This document shows, piece after piece, positions 7,514-13,204 of a stretch of DNA of 64,000 bases. Under the pieces are notes generated by a model. The model worked only from the letters and a program-made list of their open reading frames with translations. It did no database searches and was not told the origin of the DNA. A program made the position numbers and the translations under genes. Each line of letters starts with the position of its first letter. Positions within the stretch are counted from its first letter, which is position 1. This DNA is from Flavobacterium sp. ASV13. GTDB lineage: Bacteria; Bacteroidota; Bacteroidia; Flavobacteriales; Flavobacteriaceae. The stretch is taken from contig NZ_KN050752.1 of assembly GCF_000745775.1 (NCBI RefSeq), positions 233,074-297,073 of the forward strand, written 5' to 3'.

Positions 7514-8374
7514 TTACAAACCTCGGCTAATTTTAGATTTATAAAATTTCCATAAAACATCGTAGCATACTAATTCATGGATTCGATTATTAGAATAATA
7601 TAATCTGTTAAGGGACATATGCACGAAGCTTGAGATTAAATAAGTCAATTTGTTCTCTGGTATCGATTCCTGTTTTATAACTTTTAGGATTTCGTCTATA
7701 TTATATTTTATTGCAGTATTTGTTATGATATTATTAGTATCCAATAATTGCTTATGGATTGATTCTTTATGATTGTTATAGACTTTTTCAATTTGTTTTT
7801 TATTTTCTTTGTTAATGTCAAATTCTTTGTTGAATGAATTTCTAAGTCTTTCCATAAAACTTAATTTTTGAGAATCTGTTAATTCAAAATGAGTCAAATA
7901 AAAATCTATTAGTTTTAGACTGAAGATAGGTTTAGACTCTGGAACAATATCAGGGCCGTCATTTTTTGTTGTAGCTAGAAAATTAATTATTTCGACGCTA
8001 TCATTAAAAAAAACTTCTTCTGCTAATTCCATTGTATTTAAACCATATCGTTCGATTTCTCTATCGTAACAATCTATTTGTAGAGACCAAACCGATTTAG
8101 ACTCTAAGTATTCTTGTAACAAATTGTTGAATTCATTTATTACGTGTCCGATATTTTTTTTATCTGTAAGTTCAAGCCGGAATCTGATGTGATAATTTGG
8201 ATCATTATATCTAATAAAAAACCATTTTTTTATATAATTTTCTCTGATAAGTTGTTCTGTAAGAGGATTAATGATTTCAGTTAATAAAACATCAGATACT
8301 TTGTAGCCACAATATATTTTAAAGTATAGCCAATCGTCGCCAGGAAAAAAGCGATTTTTTATTTTTTCAACCAT
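7514..8374 (-). CDS. lanB_C: Thiopeptide-type / SpaB_C lanthipeptide dehydratase elimination subunit (split LanB C-terminal domain)
   Basis: The 286-residue protein matches the SpaB C-terminal (elimination) domain of LanB dehydratases, which removes glutamate from glutamylated Ser/Thr to give dehydroamino acids. The visible motifs are WFFIRYNDPNYHIRFRL (51-67) and CYDREIERYG (102-111) followed by TME. These correspond to the family's RY.D...HIR and Y..E.ERYG...M signatures. It is a free-standing protein directly downstream of the glutamylation subunit, with a 5-base gap that implies translational coupling. It is the last gene of the locus. The gene symbol is descriptive. Confidence 0.85.
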   Translation of the reverse strand: MVEKIKNRFFPGDDWLYFKIYCGYKVSDVLLTEIINPLTEQLIRENYIKKWFFIRYNDPNYHIRFRLELTDKKNIGHVINEFNNLLQEYLESKSVWSLQIDCYDREIERYGLNTMELAEEVFFNDSVEIINFLATTKNDGPDIVPESKPIFSLKLIDFYLTHFELTDSQKLSFMERLRNSFNKEFDINKENKKQIEKVYNNHKESIHKQLLDTNNIITNTAIKYNIDEILKVIKQESIPENKLTYLISSFVHMSLNRLYYSNNRIHELVCYDVLWKFYKSKISRGL

Positions 8375-8379
8375 TATGA

Positions 8380-10611
8380 TTAGTTTGTGTGGTTTTTATA
8401 AATTGAAATGATTACTTGATTGGTGAAATTATTTTCTCCTCTTTGTACTATTTGATTTTCATCTGAGAAGAGAAATTCTTCAAGGCTTATTTTTTCTTTT
8501 TTGGAAACGATATCAAGCATAACATTAATCGATCTTTTGTTTTCGAGATCGATTAATAGTTCATTGTCTGCTTCAATTAAATTAATATATCGAGGAATTT
8601 TCCATTCTGTTCTTAGATCTTTTATCGTTTCTTTTAGGCTATTATAATTGTCCGTTTTAAAAAGAGACACTAAGTCTTCTTTGTTGAAATTCCATGTTGC
8701 CTTTCTAAAAATAATGTCTTTATATTCTACTCTTGGAACAAACTTATATAGTTTAGAAATATTCCCTAAGTCAAGCCGAATTCCTTTTCTTTTATCTGCT
8801 AATTGCAAATCACATAAAAATCTATATATAGGCGTATTGTTAAATCCATAGTTGTGGGCGTTGATTAATCGTGGGATTACTTTTTTGTTCTTTGAAACAG
8901 AACGAAGCATTATTTTTCCGGTATCACTAACAGAAACGACTAAATCAGTAATAGGAATTTGATTGTCTATTTTTTTTATAGATTTTGCGAGATAAGGGAT
9001 TTCATAATCGTATAAGGATGATCTCGAAGTAATATTTCCAACTCTTGCTTCTGATAAATGGACAATTTCAGCTAAAACCACATCTTTATTAAATTTTTTG
9101 TCAATCGCGCTTATTTGCTCTGCATAATTTCGAATTTCCGGATCAGCGATTGTGAACCTTCCGATTAGATTTGCTGCAGTTGAACCTCCGCCACCTGTTA
9201 GTAATATTTTTTGTTTGCCATCTGTAAAAATAAATTCGGTAATAAAAGACATTGTTTCCGGAAGATTATCCCAATTGTCATTAGTTCGCGGTAATTTATC
9301 CTTGTCCAGAATAATGCTGTATTCATTTCTTCTATAGGCGTCAGTAATTTTTTCGTGTAAATGAATATCTGTACTGTTTAGTTTAATATCAGGCAATGAA
9401 TTTCTTTTTTTTAATACCATATGATTAATAAAAGAGTCATCAGGTAATATATTATGGTACATGCTTTCATTATAAGCAATTCCGAATTCAGAATCTAATG
9501 CTATGGACAAAGGAATTTCTGACTCACCAAATTTTTCACCAAATTGCTTTTTAAAATGTTGTAAAGAGTGATTCTCGTAAATTGGTGATACATGATTTAA
9601 GATCATTATTCCCTCTCTTATATCTTTAATTATAGTTTTGCTGAGAGTGTTTTCTTTTGTTGCAATTTTTAAATCAGTTTGGAATAGAAATTTAGGATCA
9701 AATCTGGTTTTGAATTCACGCAATAGTTCGTGTATATCATTGTATTTAGAGATTTGATTTCCAATTCTTGTATCTAATTTTTCAATTTTGTCGGCTATAG
9801 AGTCGATGATAATTCTAATGTCCTCTATGCCCTCATTTTTTTTGATTATTTGCTGGAGCAGCACAAAATAATCCTCACCTATTAATAATGGTTCAAGCTC
9901 GCTGATAAGTAATTGGTTATCGGCTAGCTCTGTTATAAATCCTATAGCGTCATCATAATCTACATCAGTAAATTTATTTATTAATTCGCTGGCGATTTCA
10001 GAAATCAGGTGTCCATTTTTTGAAAATGATAAAACAAAATCCAATACTTCTGTTTTTTCAACAGAAACAATTTCGTGGAATCTTTTTAGACCAAAATACT
10101 TGTACTCAATATAACGTAACTCATTATTTACATTGTACAAAGTTGAATTAGAGAAAAAACGAATGTTGTTTTTAATTCGAGGATCTTTAACCAAATCATT
10201 AACAAGAGAAACTAAATAAAACATATCCAGTTTAGTGTGCCTTGTATGATTCTTGTAATCACTAATCGAGATGTTGTTTTGCTCTGCAAAAGATCCAATA
10301 GAGTAACCGGCATATAGCCCAAAAGGAGTGCACCTTGAAGACATACGGGTTAAGTATTTTGTAAGTGAGTTTTTTAATTTTTCGATTTTTTTCGGATCAA
10401 CCAGTTCTCCATCCAGCCATTGTTTTAAGGTGAAATAAAGGCTGGGGGAAGATATAAAAAGGGCTTCCTGTATAAGAGTGTTATTAAATTTTTTTTTAAA
10501 AGCTGATTCATTTTCTTCTATGTCATTGTAAAAAGCAAATAAATCTGAAATGGGATATAAAGGCGTTCGTAAAATATATTTTGTAAATAATTTATAAGGA
10601 AAGTTACTCAT
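8380..10611 (-). CDS. lanB: Class I lantibiotic dehydratase, glutamylation subunit (split LanB N-terminal part)
   Basis: At 743 residues this protein covers the LanB N-terminal region that uses glutamyl-tRNA to glutamylate Ser/Thr of the precursor. It lacks the ~280-residue elimination domain, which is encoded by the next gene; fused LanB proteins such as NisB are near 1000 aa. Visible signatures are the early RTPLYP (15-20), [10 protein letters not shown] (50-59) and [14 protein letters not shown] (89-102), typical of the family. A LanC gene lies 97 bases upstream. Dehydratase assignment is strong; tRNAGlu dependence is inferred from the family. Confidence 0.9.
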
Positions 10612-10708
10612 TGTATTTAGGTTGTATAAAATTAAATACTTTATATATGGTGTCTAGAAGAGAAATTGTTGATATAATTTTAGAACTTAAAGGGGGTGGG
10701 AAATAAAT

Positions 10709-11866
10709 CTATTGTAGAAATAAACATTCATCCCATTTAAGTCTTTCCGAGCTGAAAGTTTCAAGTAATGTAAGACCAATGCCTGATAATCCATATAAGA
10801 TTGATAAGTCATTATTATCCTTTATGGTTAGATTTTCTAAACCTAATTTTAACCAAAATTGGCTTGTTTTGTCGAGGTCTTTGTCTTTAGTTATTCTATA
10901 GGCATCTGAGAAAATTTTAGAAGCACCAAAGTATCCATGACAAAAACCATTTGTTTGTAATAATGATTGTTCTAAATTCATTCTATAAGCTGATTTTTTT
11001 AAAATTCTGATTCCTTCATCTTTGTGCTTTTCCTTTTGATTATAATTGATAGAGGTGTTTAGAAGATTTATTCCGATGCCTAAGTCTCCAGAACACCAGG
11101 AAAGAGCACTAGAGTATTTAACAATTCCTTCCGAATCTAGATAATTTGGAAATATTGAAATTCCGGTATTTTTTGTGTCTTTGTATTTAAATAAATAATC
11201 TGCATAACAATCTGCTAATATCAATGATTCTTTCTGAAGCTTTGATATTTTTGATATTTTGTTGAGAATGAATATAATGCTGGAAATACCATGAGCTAAT
11301 CCAAAGGCTACTCTGTTTTGAAAACTCATTTTAACTGTAATCTCTTTTTCTTTAGCGAATAATTCTATGTCAGTAAAGAGGTGTTTCAGATTTTCAACCA
11401 GCATAAGAAGATGATCTTCGATTAATTCTTTACTTTTAAACACGGTAGATTGTTCCCATCGATCAACAAAATAATGTGCATACCCTATGGCCCCATGTAA
11501 AGCATCAATGTTTTTTTCAAGTAATGATTCTTGGATGTAATAAGAAGCGTAGGTGTCAATATCTGATAAAACTTCATTATTTGAAGAATCTATAAACTTT
11601 TCTTTTATTAAATGATTTATAACCCAACCTAATCCTATTATTCCATTACAATAAGTAGGCTTTGAATATCCTTCGTTAATTTTATCAATACACTTTTCTA
11701 AAATTTGCTGTCCAGTCTTATTTTCTGTTTTAAAATTTTTGGAGTAATAGAAATTAAACAATGCTAAACCAGATAGACCGTTTAAAACTCCAATGTCTTC
11801 CATATTATGAAAACCATAACTTATTCTCTCATTAATTGAGTGAATTTTTGATTCTATTAAGGTCAT
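10709..11866 (-). CDS. lanC: LanC-family lanthionine cyclase
   Basis: LanC joins Cys thiols to dehydroamino acids to form (methyl)lanthionine rings, using a zinc ion. The 385-residue protein carries the repeating helical-barrel motifs GLSGLALF (30-37), CNGIIGLGW (73-81), LHGAIGYAHYF (123-133) and AHGISSIIF (191-199). Its predicted zinc ligands are C258 (LSWCSGDLG), C309 and H310 (GFCHGYFG). All the residues expected for a catalytic cyclase are therefore present. It follows the precursor gene after a ~300-base leader containing two hairpins, so its expression may be decoupled from the precursor. Confidence 0.92.
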   Translation of the reverse strand: MTLIESKIHSINERISYGFHNMEDIGVLNGLSGLALFNFYYSKNFKTENKTGQQILEKCIDKINEGYSKPTYCNGIIGLGWVINHLIKEKFIDSSNNEVLSDIDTYASYYIQESLLEKNIDALHGAIGYAHYFVDRWEQSTVFKSKELIEDHLLMLVENLKHLFTDIELFAKEKEITVKMSFQNRVAFGLAHGISSIIFILNKISKISKLQKESLILADCYADYLFKYKDTKNTGISIFPNYLDSEGIVKYSSALSWCSGDLGIGINLLNTSINYNQKEKHKDEGIRILKKSAYRMNLEQSLLQTNGFCHGYFGASKIFSDAYRITKDKDLDKTSQFWLKLGLENLTIKDNNDLSILYGLSGIGLTLLETFSSERLKWDECLFLQ

Positions 11867-11888
11867 GATTTTCTAAAAGGTTAATAAA

Positions 11889-11916
11889 AAATCCAAAACT
11901 TTTCCGTTTTGGATTT
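11889..11916 (-). terminator. Intrinsic terminator just upstream of lanC (possible attenuator)
   Basis: On the minus strand, perfect 11-base arms AAATCCAAAAC/GTTTTGGATTT with a 6-base loop are followed by a run of T. The hairpin ends 22 bases before the lanC start, so transcripts reaching lanC must read through it. Confidence 0.7.
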
Positions 11917-12078
11917 ATTTGGATTGATACATGTTTATTTATTGAGGTTGTCTGATTGGCCATTACCGATAATGATAATTGTCTTGCAAACTTCATAATT
12001 TAAGATTTTAGTGCTATTTAATCATTAAATGATGTTACATTAAAACCGATAAGATTGCAGAAATCATATTAATAAACT

Positions 12079-12086
12079 CAAAAATA
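12079..12086 (-). promoter_or_regulatory. Candidate internal -7 box ahead of lanC
   Basis: TATTTTTG on the minus strand fits TAnnTTTG. No -33 TTG is visible at the right distance, so this is tentative. Initiation here would give a ~155-base leader ending at the 11889-11916 terminator. Confidence 0.3.
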
Positions 12087-12115
12087 TATTAGCATAAGTT
12101 TTATTTAATAATGAA

Positions 12116-12159
12116 AAGAAATTAGTATCCAAAATTATTATTTTAGATACTAATTTCTT
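12116..12159 (-). terminator. Hairpin directly after the lanthipeptide precursor gene
   Basis: The arms (14 bases, then one mismatch, then 4 more) lie 9 bases beyond the precursor stop codon. Such hairpins commonly allow partial read-through so that precursor mRNA exceeds enzyme mRNA. Confidence 0.7.
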
Positions 12160-12167
12160 CGAGAGCA

Positions 12168-12416
12168 TTAGGATTGTCTGCTGATACAATTTCCGTAATC
12201 ATTATTGCCGTCGTCACCAATACCATATTCGCAACTTGAAAGATGTGTTGTGTCATTATACGGAGCAGTTACAGTTGGAGAACCTGGGAATTTTATGGGA
12301 ACACCATCTCCACCACCACCTTTGACATTGGCTAACTGTTCATTTTCTAAAGCATTGAAATTAAGATTGTCTAATTTTGAAATAGTAATTTTCGATAATT
12401 TAAGATTAGTTTTCAT
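12168..12416 (-). CDS. lanA: Class I lanthipeptide precursor peptide
   Basis: The 82-residue peptide has the Bacteroidota class I leader pattern: LKLSKITISKLDNL (6-19) and ENEQLANVKGG ending in a GGGG run (33-36). A core of ~46 residues follows. The core has nine Ser/Thr (S46, T48, T50, T56, T57, S60, S61, S79, S82) and two cysteines (C62, C77), so at most two (methyl)lanthionine rings. It is acidic and glycine-rich near the C-terminus (GIGDDGNNDYGN). LanC and split LanB genes follow on the same strand. Cleavage after a glycine of the GG run is inferred. Confidence 0.9.
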   Translation of the reverse strand: MKTNLKLSKITISKLDNLNFNALENEQLANVKGGGGDGVPIKFPGSPTVTAPYNDTTHLSSCEYGIGDDGNNDYGNCISRQS

Positions 12417-12446
12417 AATTTTTCTTTTTAATTAAGATAAGTATTA

Positions 12447-12477
12447 CGAATATAAAAAAGAAATTATTCTTTCCAAA
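12447..12477 (-). promoter_or_regulatory. Candidate promoter of the lanthipeptide precursor
   Basis: On the minus strand TTTG (12474-12477) is separated by 19 bases from TATATTCG (12447-12454), one mismatch from TAnnTTTG. The -33 box overlaps the end of the upstream nucleotidyltransferase gene, so the precursor can be transcribed separately from it. Confidence 0.5.
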
Positions 12478-13204
12478 TTATTTTGTAGTTTTTTTCGTTA
12501 AATTTTATTATTTTATTTTCTAAGTAATGAAATATTTCTGAAAGATTTTGTTTACTAATGTCAGATATACAACTTTGCCAAAGAACTACAAATTTTCTAT
12601 CTGGAAATTCGATCCAGCCAGATTTTTCTCTATATGATGAATTTGTGAATAGTTTTTCAGTTTTTAAATCAGTTACTTGTTCAGAATTTAAAAATTCAGA
12701 ATAAGATTTTAAACATAATTTCATAAATGACATATAAGTATAAATGAAAAATGGAGAATTTTGATCTAAAGACAGTAAATAACTTTTATAATTATATAGT
12801 AAATACATGTCTGTTTTTAATTTATTACGGTCTTTGTCTTTTACTAAAAAGGCACTTTGTTGATAATAAGTTGCTATTTGTTTTAATTCGTTCACTTTAG
12901 AATTTTTTTCCAATAAAACTTTTCCAATACGAATTACGTTTGCTTCAAACTTGTAGTTTATTAAGAATTCTTTTTTAATTCTATTTTCTATTTTATCATA
13001 ACTTCTTCCTAAGTAGGAAAATTTAAAACCATCAATTTCTATTAATCCTTTAACCGTGTCACAATCTTTGTCAAATATAATTCTAATGTCTACGTCAGAA
13101 TTTTTATGATTCATGTTAACGGCATAACTTCCTGTTAAAAGTATTCCAATTACATTTGTGTTATTTTGCCAGCTTTCTAAAAACTTTTCAAGAGCTTTTT
13201 CCAT
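12464..13204 (-). CDS. Nucleotidyltransferase-superfamily protein next to the lanthipeptide precursor
   Basis: The 246-residue protein has the Pol-beta-type nucleotidyltransferase core: ILLTGSYAVNM with the GS motif at G25-S26, then KNSDVDIRI with the D37/D39 metal-binding pair. Small-molecule (antibiotic) nucleotidyltransferases and MNT antitoxins share this core. No HEPN-toxin gene is adjacent, and the ~200-residue C-terminal part is not recognised. The gene lies 47 bases upstream of the precursor on the same strand. It may be a tailoring or self-resistance enzyme of the locus, or an unrelated neighbour. Only the superfamily is certain. Confidence 0.72.
   Translation of the reverse strand: MEKALEKFLESWQNNTNVIGILLTGSYAVNMNHKNSDVDIRIIFDKDCDTVKGLIEIDGFKFSYLGRSYDKIENRIKKEFLINYKFEANVIRIGKVLLEKNSKVNELKQIATYYQQSAFLVKDKDRNKLKTDMYLLYNYKSYLLSLDQNSPFFIYTYMSFMKLCLKSYSEFLNSEQVTDLKTEKLFTNSSYREKSGWIEFPDRKFVVLWQSCISDISKQNLSEIFHYLENKIIKFNEKNYKIIWKE

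Follow-up and report, generated by a model that had tools for sequence, protein, structure and literature searches.

What does a nucleotidyltransferase (NT) do beside the genes for a lanthipeptide? The question is raised by a locus at positions 7,514 to 13,204 of a 64,000-nt stretch of DNA from Flavobacterium sp. ASV13 (NZ_KN050752.1); the whole stretch is called the window here. The five genes of the locus encode the NT, a precursor with a GG leader, the cyclase LanC, a LanB glutamylation protein, and a free-standing SpaB_C elimination protein. An initial annotation had proposed that the NT could be a tailoring or an immunity enzyme; our results narrow this: the probable substrate of the enzyme is the peptide, and the likely site is a C-terminal Ser or Thr. 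On the evidence of sequence, we consider it reasonably probable that the NT is a tailoring enzyme of the kind that acts on ribosomally synthesized and posttranslationally modified peptides (RiPPs), serving this class I lanthipeptide locus by acting on the hydroxyl of a C-terminal Ser/Thr.

The partner peptides of the NT end in Ser or Thr

The comparison drew on 33 NT loci from four Flavobacteriales genera (labels beginning with L and G are our own for loci and genomes): 3 from Flavobacterium (the window, L039, and L040), 18 from Kordia (L046, L051, L053, and L126 to L140), 1 from g95 (L052), and 11 from g241 (L081 to L083 and L118 to L125), a genus of another family that we tentatively take to be Chryseobacterium. 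The NT is broken in L133 and L140, and leaving both out gave 31 loci with an intact NT. A GG-leader peptide is encoded in the same locus in all 31, which bears out the expectation that the NT would be linked to precursors elsewhere.

In each of these 31 loci, the peptide partnered with the NT has Ser or Thr as its last residue, 30 by script and one, L131, by eye; the reading frame of L131 lacks the usual start and was not scripted, and it ends in CDRET. The 30 scripted loci hold 47 partner peptides, 45 of them distinct, and every one ends in this way (45/45 distinct, 47/47 in all). The distinct partners form 15 core clusters at 45% identity, and each cluster ends in Ser or Thr. At positions -2 to -10 of the partners, Ser/Thr is found in 4 to 29%, and over the last 30 residues it makes up 20.4% in partners versus 19.7% in controls.

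The controls came from 62 LanB loci (20 from Flavobacterium, 39 from g241, and 3 from Kordia/G594), none of which has an NT. Only 13 of their 101 distinct GG-like peptides end in Ser or Thr, or 6 of 30 when the count is held to the contiguous LanB block. The NT loci themselves hold 18 peptides other than partners. Five of these look false (one each in L040, L126, and L131 and two in L133); none of the remaining 13 ends in Ser or Thr, nor does any of the 18 with the false-looking five included. Among the 31 loci with an intact NT, partner and NT are neighbors in 22 (an automatic rule gave 21, to which L131 is added); the partner lies elsewhere in the block in 7 and past another gene in 2 (L132 and L137).

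The rule was recorded before L118 to L140 were obtained. One of these 23 loci, L126, is the already-seen L045. An intact NT is present in 20 of the other 22, and each of these has a partner ending in Ser or Thr (19 by script and L131 by eye). The new loci are partly kin of earlier ones: L128 is nearly the same as L051, L119 is like L083, and L127, L129, and L131 are like L046. Since the peptides of 15 core clusters agree in their last residue, taking the C-terminal Ser/Thr as the acceptor for the NT would be the simplest explanation.

Fold and metal site of the NT

Twelve residues are invariant across the 31 aligned NTs (G25, S26, S36, D37, D39, A88, G94, Y168, E175, K181, D202, and F205), and position 87 holds E in 26 of them and Q in the other 5. 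The GS...SDxD metal-site motif is complete in the window NT and in 31/31 aligned NTs. The initial annotation had called the catalytic landmarks of the locus intact; this stands for the two proteins examined, the NT and LanC, whose zinc motifs AHG, WCSGD, and CHG are all present. The Pfam family NTP_transf_2 is matched by 10/10 members of the NT family tested.

When an AlphaFold2 model of the NT, of moderate quality, was searched with Foldseek, the best matches were ANT(4')/kanamycin nucleotidyltransferase (KNTase) structures (6p01, 1kny, and others), over about the whole length but with TM scores of only about 0.5. Next came 3c18 (an uncharacterized NT-like protein), HalB, ANT(4')-IIb, and LinB, with AAD(9) and ANT(6) weaker. 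By sequence, the NT profile aligns with parts of MNT and related chains only, and the curated ANT(9) model gives the window NT 14.7 bits, far below the cut-off of 340. PADLOC returned weak PDC-S09 matches to the NT and nothing else. KNTase modifies a hydroxyl, and a hydroxyl acceptor would fit the NT because the predicted fold resembles those of hydroxyl-modifying enzymes.

We propose that the products of the locus act as follows. LanB would glutamylate Ser/Thr residues of the precursor core, SpaB_C would eliminate the glutamate, and LanC would form a (methyl)lanthionine ring or a pair of them. To the hydroxyl of the C-terminal Ser, the NT, with substrate, site, and chemistry all presumed, would add a nucleotidyl (or other phosphate-linked) group. 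Cleavage at the GG site, and presumably export of the peptide, would fall to a C39 peptidase-transporter whose gene lies elsewhere in the genome.

Loci that carry the NT

Within the fetched stretches of the 33 NT loci, LanB was found in 14, an intact LanC in 20, and a zinc-less LanC-like protein in 12. Since the peptide is there in 31/31 intact-NT loci, the NT appears to track the peptide and not any one enzyme. The loci take several forms: (i) a split LanB (the window, L039, and L040), in L081, L120, L123, and L124 with an extra zinc-less LanC-like protein; (ii) a fused LanB with the NT on the opposite strand (L082, L083, L118, L119, L121, L122, and L125); (iii) a zinc-less LanC-like protein with NT and peptide, without LanB (L046, L052, L126, L127, L129, and the decayed L131); (iv) an intact LanC with NT and peptides, without LanB (L053, L130, L132, and L134 to L136); and (v) NT and peptide, with neither LanC nor LanB seen (L051, L128, L138, L139, and L137).

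These arrangements bear on whether the NT serves instead in self-protection, nucleotidylating the C-terminal Ser/Thr so that the mature peptide is inactivated in its producer, as aminoglycoside and lincosamide nucleotidyltransferases inactivate drugs. The nearest folds do include resistance enzymes (ANT(4') and LinB, more weakly AAD(9) and ANT(6)), and in the seven fused-LanB loci the opposite-strand position of the NT would suit an immunity gene under its own control. Yet in the Flavobacterium loci, the NT is the first gene, on the same strand and ahead of the precursor, and it persists beside a peptide where neither LanB nor LanC is seen (L051, L128, L138, and L139). Resistance alone would need no Ser/Thr ending in every cluster, although it does explain the ending if that residue is the target. 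We therefore regard self-protection as unlikely.

The idea that the NT substitutes for LanB in activation for dehydration was weakened, as LanB is encoded elsewhere in all three genomes with LanB-less loci that were checked (G649, G476, and G594). Zinc-less LanC-like proteins as a whole are not confined to NT loci: by a motif test, 14 of the 62 control loci also have LanC-like proteins without the motifs. A shorter kind, whose members score best against the reference-set protein of K. algicida or of G594, occurs in 12/33 NT loci (counting a fragment in L131) versus 0/62 controls. This short protein accompanies the NT in L046, L052, L081, L120, L123, L124, L126, L127, L129, L130, and L132, and is perhaps a substrate holder; a zinc-less LanC-like protein sometimes adjoins an intact LanC in NT loci.

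Other genes were seen in some of the Kordia loci. In L137, at 8114-10563, the NT adjoins P-loop kinase-like and methyltransferase-like genes, judged by eye, and the gene for the Ser-ending GG peptide is oriented divergently from them. Proteins of 186 and 202 amino acids (aa) adjoin LanC in L130 (12156-12716, plus strand) and L132 (12337-12945, minus strand) and carry a second GS...DxD nucleotidyltransferase-like motif, seen by eye without a family search. Lys/Gln-rich proteins of 177 to 179 aa lie between the GG-peptide genes and LanC in L135 (6783-7322) and L136 (11733-12266). Three loci of Kordia G1430 are decaying: L131 has a broken LanC and no usual precursor start, and the NT is broken in L133 and L140.

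In a genus sample of 299 Flavobacterium genomes, 3 have the NT, the window's included, and 54 have LanB. Conservation of the gene order in relatives had been set beforehand as a refutation test of the initial annotation. Two other Flavobacterium genomes (G075 and G103) show the identical five-gene order between matching flanks, with 58% and 55% identity to the window in the NT and 56% in LanC for both, and the order is therefore not a product of chance. A single-sequence search of genome contigs with the window NT gave no match; a three-sequence NT alignment reached Flavobacterium aquidurense RC62 and two Kordia. The NT was found in 4/397 genomes family-wide and 6/395 order-wide, two of the latter weak. 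Phylum-wide, matches in 14/296 genomes were strong only in the window's genome and G720, the remainder being mostly short NT proteins; the weak order-wide matches (L087 and L088) and most other phylum-wide ones stand outside the 33-locus set. The NT is present in 11/173 genomes of g241 and in 10/11 Kordia genomes, there with up to five copies per genome, and no match to it was found in the plasmid collection.

Could the NT be a mere hitchhiker, an MNT-type antitoxin or another nucleotidyltransferase that lies by chance in a peptide locus at a conserved site? It does match MntA (28.4 bits on the equivalog model, below the cut-off of 60) and MNT structures weakly, and many NT loci share one chromosomal neighborhood. 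But GG peptides also accompany the NT at further sites (L053, L130, L132, and L134 to L139), in several gene orders and orientations. The site is also empty in three relatives: in 3 of 12 other Flavobacterium loci (G008, G006, and G004), RlpA is followed directly by DinB, and in the remaining 9 there is no DinB within the examined stretch. The tested window neighbors are not HEPN proteins, with no HEPN search made in the other loci. A hitchhiker seems highly improbable.

Often close to the NT loci (L039, L040, L046, L051, L052, L081, L083, L118 to L121, L123 to L129, and L131) are one or more of three genes, for a SusC/TonB-type receptor, a 140-aa membrane protein, and glucose-6-phosphate isomerase; the neighborhood is similar in two families. 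The flanking 140-aa membrane gene was found in 18/21 genomes. A functional tie of the NT locus to the SusC/TonB-receptor flank was not adopted, because the flanking genes also occur in relatives without the NT.

The window locus, its precursor, and its hairpins

The five genes predicted by the initial annotation lie where it placed them, all on the minus strand between the RlpA-like and DinB-like flanks that it also named (Pfam), and the four enzymes score above their Pfam cut-offs (Table 1). The glutamylation and elimination domains are encoded on separate proteins, as in the split-LanB (pinensin-like) subgroup. Together with the LanC zinc motifs, these domains support a minimal class I lanthipeptide-type locus with a split LanB; the lanthionine rings themselves are predicted.

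Table 1. Features of the NT locus in the window
Feature	Position	Strand	Description
Nucleotidyltransferase (NT)	12464-13204	minus	246 aa; PF01909 NTP_transf_2, 32.8 bits (cut-off 21); KNTase-like predicted fold
Precursor (LanA)	12168-12416	minus	82 aa; GG leader, two Cys, C-terminal Ser
Codon of C-terminal Ser	12171-12173	minus	Proposed acceptor site; position computed from the precursor sequence
First hairpin	12115-12160	minus	Strong, directly after the precursor stop codon; terminator- or processing-like
Second hairpin and T run	11889-11916	minus	Just before lanC; partial-terminator-like
LanC cyclase	10709-11866	minus	385 aa; PF05147 LANC_like, 131.9 bits (cut-off 23.2)
LanB glutamylation protein	8380-10611	minus	Split LanB, part one; 743 aa; PF04738 Lant_dehydr_N, 422.8 bits (cut-off 28), profile 2-647 of 649
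SpaB_C elimination protein	7514-8374	minus	Split LanB, part two, free-standing; 286 aa; PF14028 Lant_dehydr_C, 226.4 bits (cut-off 24.4), full profile; TIGR03891, 197.4 bits

The precursor leader ends in KGGGG, and the core, with several Ser/Thr and two Cys, ends in NCISRQS. In Pfam and NCBIfam searches, the precursor reaches no curated family cut-off; the best NCBIfam match is the GG-leader model TIGR04149, at 19.0 bits (cut-off 25). In the two Flavobacterium relatives, the leader is kept and the core is divergent or rebuilt.

The first hairpin has a centroid stem of 21 pairs, a minimum free energy of -23.1 kcal/mol, and a z of -8.75. The second (z of -3.83) is present also in the two relatives, by alignment, with z of -5.75 and -5.93. 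It is possible that these two predicted structures between precursor and lanC act as attenuators and could hold the enzyme genes below the level of the precursor. A 54-aa open reading frame upstream of lanC (11832-11996, minus strand), initially considered as a second precursor, is probably not a gene, since it runs through the conserved second hairpin and matches no family.

Export

The initial annotation had stressed the absence of a nearby peptidase-containing ABC transporter. Indeed, no C39 peptidase domain was found on the window's contig, with other kinds of leader peptidase not searched for. As a distinction this is weaker than it had seemed: a C39 exporter in the locus is usual for GG leaders but not obligatory, and such an absence is common in the genus, because only 4 of the 20 Flavobacterium control loci with LanB have a full-length C39-type transporter (>600 aa) nearby, and 6 of the 20 have at least a piece of one. 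Among the NT loci, a C39-type transporter is present in 6/33, all of these belonging to the seven loci of form (ii) (L082, L083, L118, L119, L121, and L122).

Export by genes elsewhere, one of the two outcomes foreseen, gained ground: the source genome has four C39 matches, all on other contigs, three above the cut-off and one below, and the three have transporter length and an HlyD-like neighbor, as judged by eye. For the other outcome, a product acting inside the cell, nothing was found. In the same genome, L043 (3459-10472), with a C39 transporter, an HlyD-like gene, a 530-aa redox-like gene, and short peptides resembling those with GG leaders, looks by eye like a separate peptide-export locus. 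In L042 (2402-9497), a protein close to the C39 transporter is 448 aa long and has an N-terminus resembling a GG leader.

Discussion

Split LanB proteins and GG leaders are known from class I clusters of Bacteroidetes (PMC7268733), and the LxLxKx5L motif described there is matched by the window leader. For LanB proteins of Bacteroidota, supplying GluRS/tRNA-Glu from the producer is reported to have helped (PMC9993889). Like the pinensin-type systems of Bacteroidota, the window has separate glutamylation and elimination proteins, LanC, and a GG-leader precursor; unlike them, it has a gene for a KNTase-like NT before that of the precursor and lacks a C39 exporter in the locus. Colocation of LanC and NT around Kordia precursors is described in one sentence of a Discussion (PMC11118758), and our Kordia loci are probably of the same kind. 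Nothing is said there, in the passages available, of a C-terminal Ser/Thr, of LanB-containing NT loci in other genera, or of zinc-less LanC-like proteins. Nucleotidyltransferases are also listed among the ancillary genes of daptide clusters (PMC10036551) and in a figure legend for a lasso locus (PMC13289728). Among the matches listed in our search, which covered few subscription papers and no supplements, there was no report of a C-terminal Ser/Thr rule or of a nucleotidylated lanthipeptide. Thus, we did not find the rule in print, whereas the LanC-NT colocation in Kordia is already published.

The nearest precedent for chemistry at the peptide end comes from lasso peptides. According to two reports (PMC8498205, PMC9266682), lasso kinase substrates from two phyla have a common C-terminal Ser and little else, and PsmN acts there. 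Like the window, the PsmK/PsmN system of pseudomycoidin, and with it the HPr-like kinases of paeninodin, has an NT-annotated enzyme in a RiPP locus and a Ser-ending precursor. It differs in its lasso scaffold, in the kinase that acts first, and in the phosphoglycosylated product reported, and we liken the two by description and not by sequence. One can envision on this basis that the NT transfers a phosphosugar or hexose, and not a nucleotide, to (phospho)Ser/Thr: PsmN, although annotated as a nucleotidyltransferase, is reported in the same papers to put hexoses on the phosphorylated C-terminal Ser, and L137 has its kinase-like gene adjoining the NT. In the window, though, no kinase or lasso enzyme was found by Pfam among the scanned proteins, with no kinase search made in the other NT loci, and the metal site that is complete in 31/31 NTs suits nucleotidyl transfer without proving it. 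Sugar transfer is, in our estimate, a rather improbable activity for this enzyme.

The proposed nucleotidyl transfer by the NT has its own parallels. ANT(4') and related resistance enzymes would share its fold over about the whole length, along with the GS...DxD metal site, but identity is about 12%, and the window NT is found with peptide genes. With microcin C, the NT product would have in common that a ribosomal peptide carries a C-terminal nucleotide. Microcin C, a 7-residue peptide, is made by the ThiF-like MccB, of an enzyme family unrelated to the NT.

Several points weigh against the NT as a tailoring enzyme for the C-terminal Ser/Thr. The 47 partners were chosen by hand, as the peptides nearest the NT or in its block; by the automatic rule, 45/51 block peptides and 27/31 adjacent peptides end in Ser or Thr. 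Of the six block exceptions, the one in L133 is false (ribosomal-protein-like), one in L138 and two in L139 lie beyond the nearest peptide, and those in L053 and L135 lie beyond LanC. The Fisher value for partners versus controls, 3e-26, overstates the contrast because peptides from the same locus and from kin are not independent; the 15 core clusters are the safer measure. The controls are mostly top-scoring LanB rows and thus nonrandom, and the loose peptide pattern admits false ones. A Cys lies within the last 8 residues in 47/47 partners, a figure without a control count, and a ring near the end could therefore be the shared feature; the NT may recognize, among other things, such a ring or a disulfide close to the C-terminus. 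The AlphaFold2 model is moderate (mean predicted local distance difference test score of 76 and predicted TM score of 0.53, from four sequences), and the KNTase matches to it, at E values of 1.5e-7 to 7.1e-7 and probability of 1.00, come with TM scores of about 0.5, root mean square deviations of about 8, and 11 to 13% identity. The nearest precedent, PsmN, is reported to install hexoses. A self-protection enzyme, too, would give the identical NT-peptide linkage.

A broader proposal is more tentative. It is conceivable, though we hold it with some doubt, that a KNTase-fold family in Flavobacteriales makes peptide-nucleotide conjugates, each NT adding a nucleoside monophosphate to the hydroxyl of the C-terminal Ser/Thr of its own GG-leader peptide, on lanthipeptide and possibly non-lanthipeptide scaffolds; in the barest loci, those of NT and peptide, no lanthionine enzyme was seen alongside. 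Such conjugation would count as a RiPP modification in its own right.

If the NT acts as we propose, it would add a C-terminal nucleotidyl (or phospho-linked) cap to the known modifications of lanthipeptides. It would also supply a search rule, by which a GG-leader peptide that has Ser or Thr as its last residue and shares a locus with this NT marks a further candidate. Peptide-nucleotide conjugates of the microcin C type are Trojan-horse antibiotics, and new antibacterials may therefore be found among the products; the family would also offer a test case for resistance-type nucleotidyltransferases turning to peptides.

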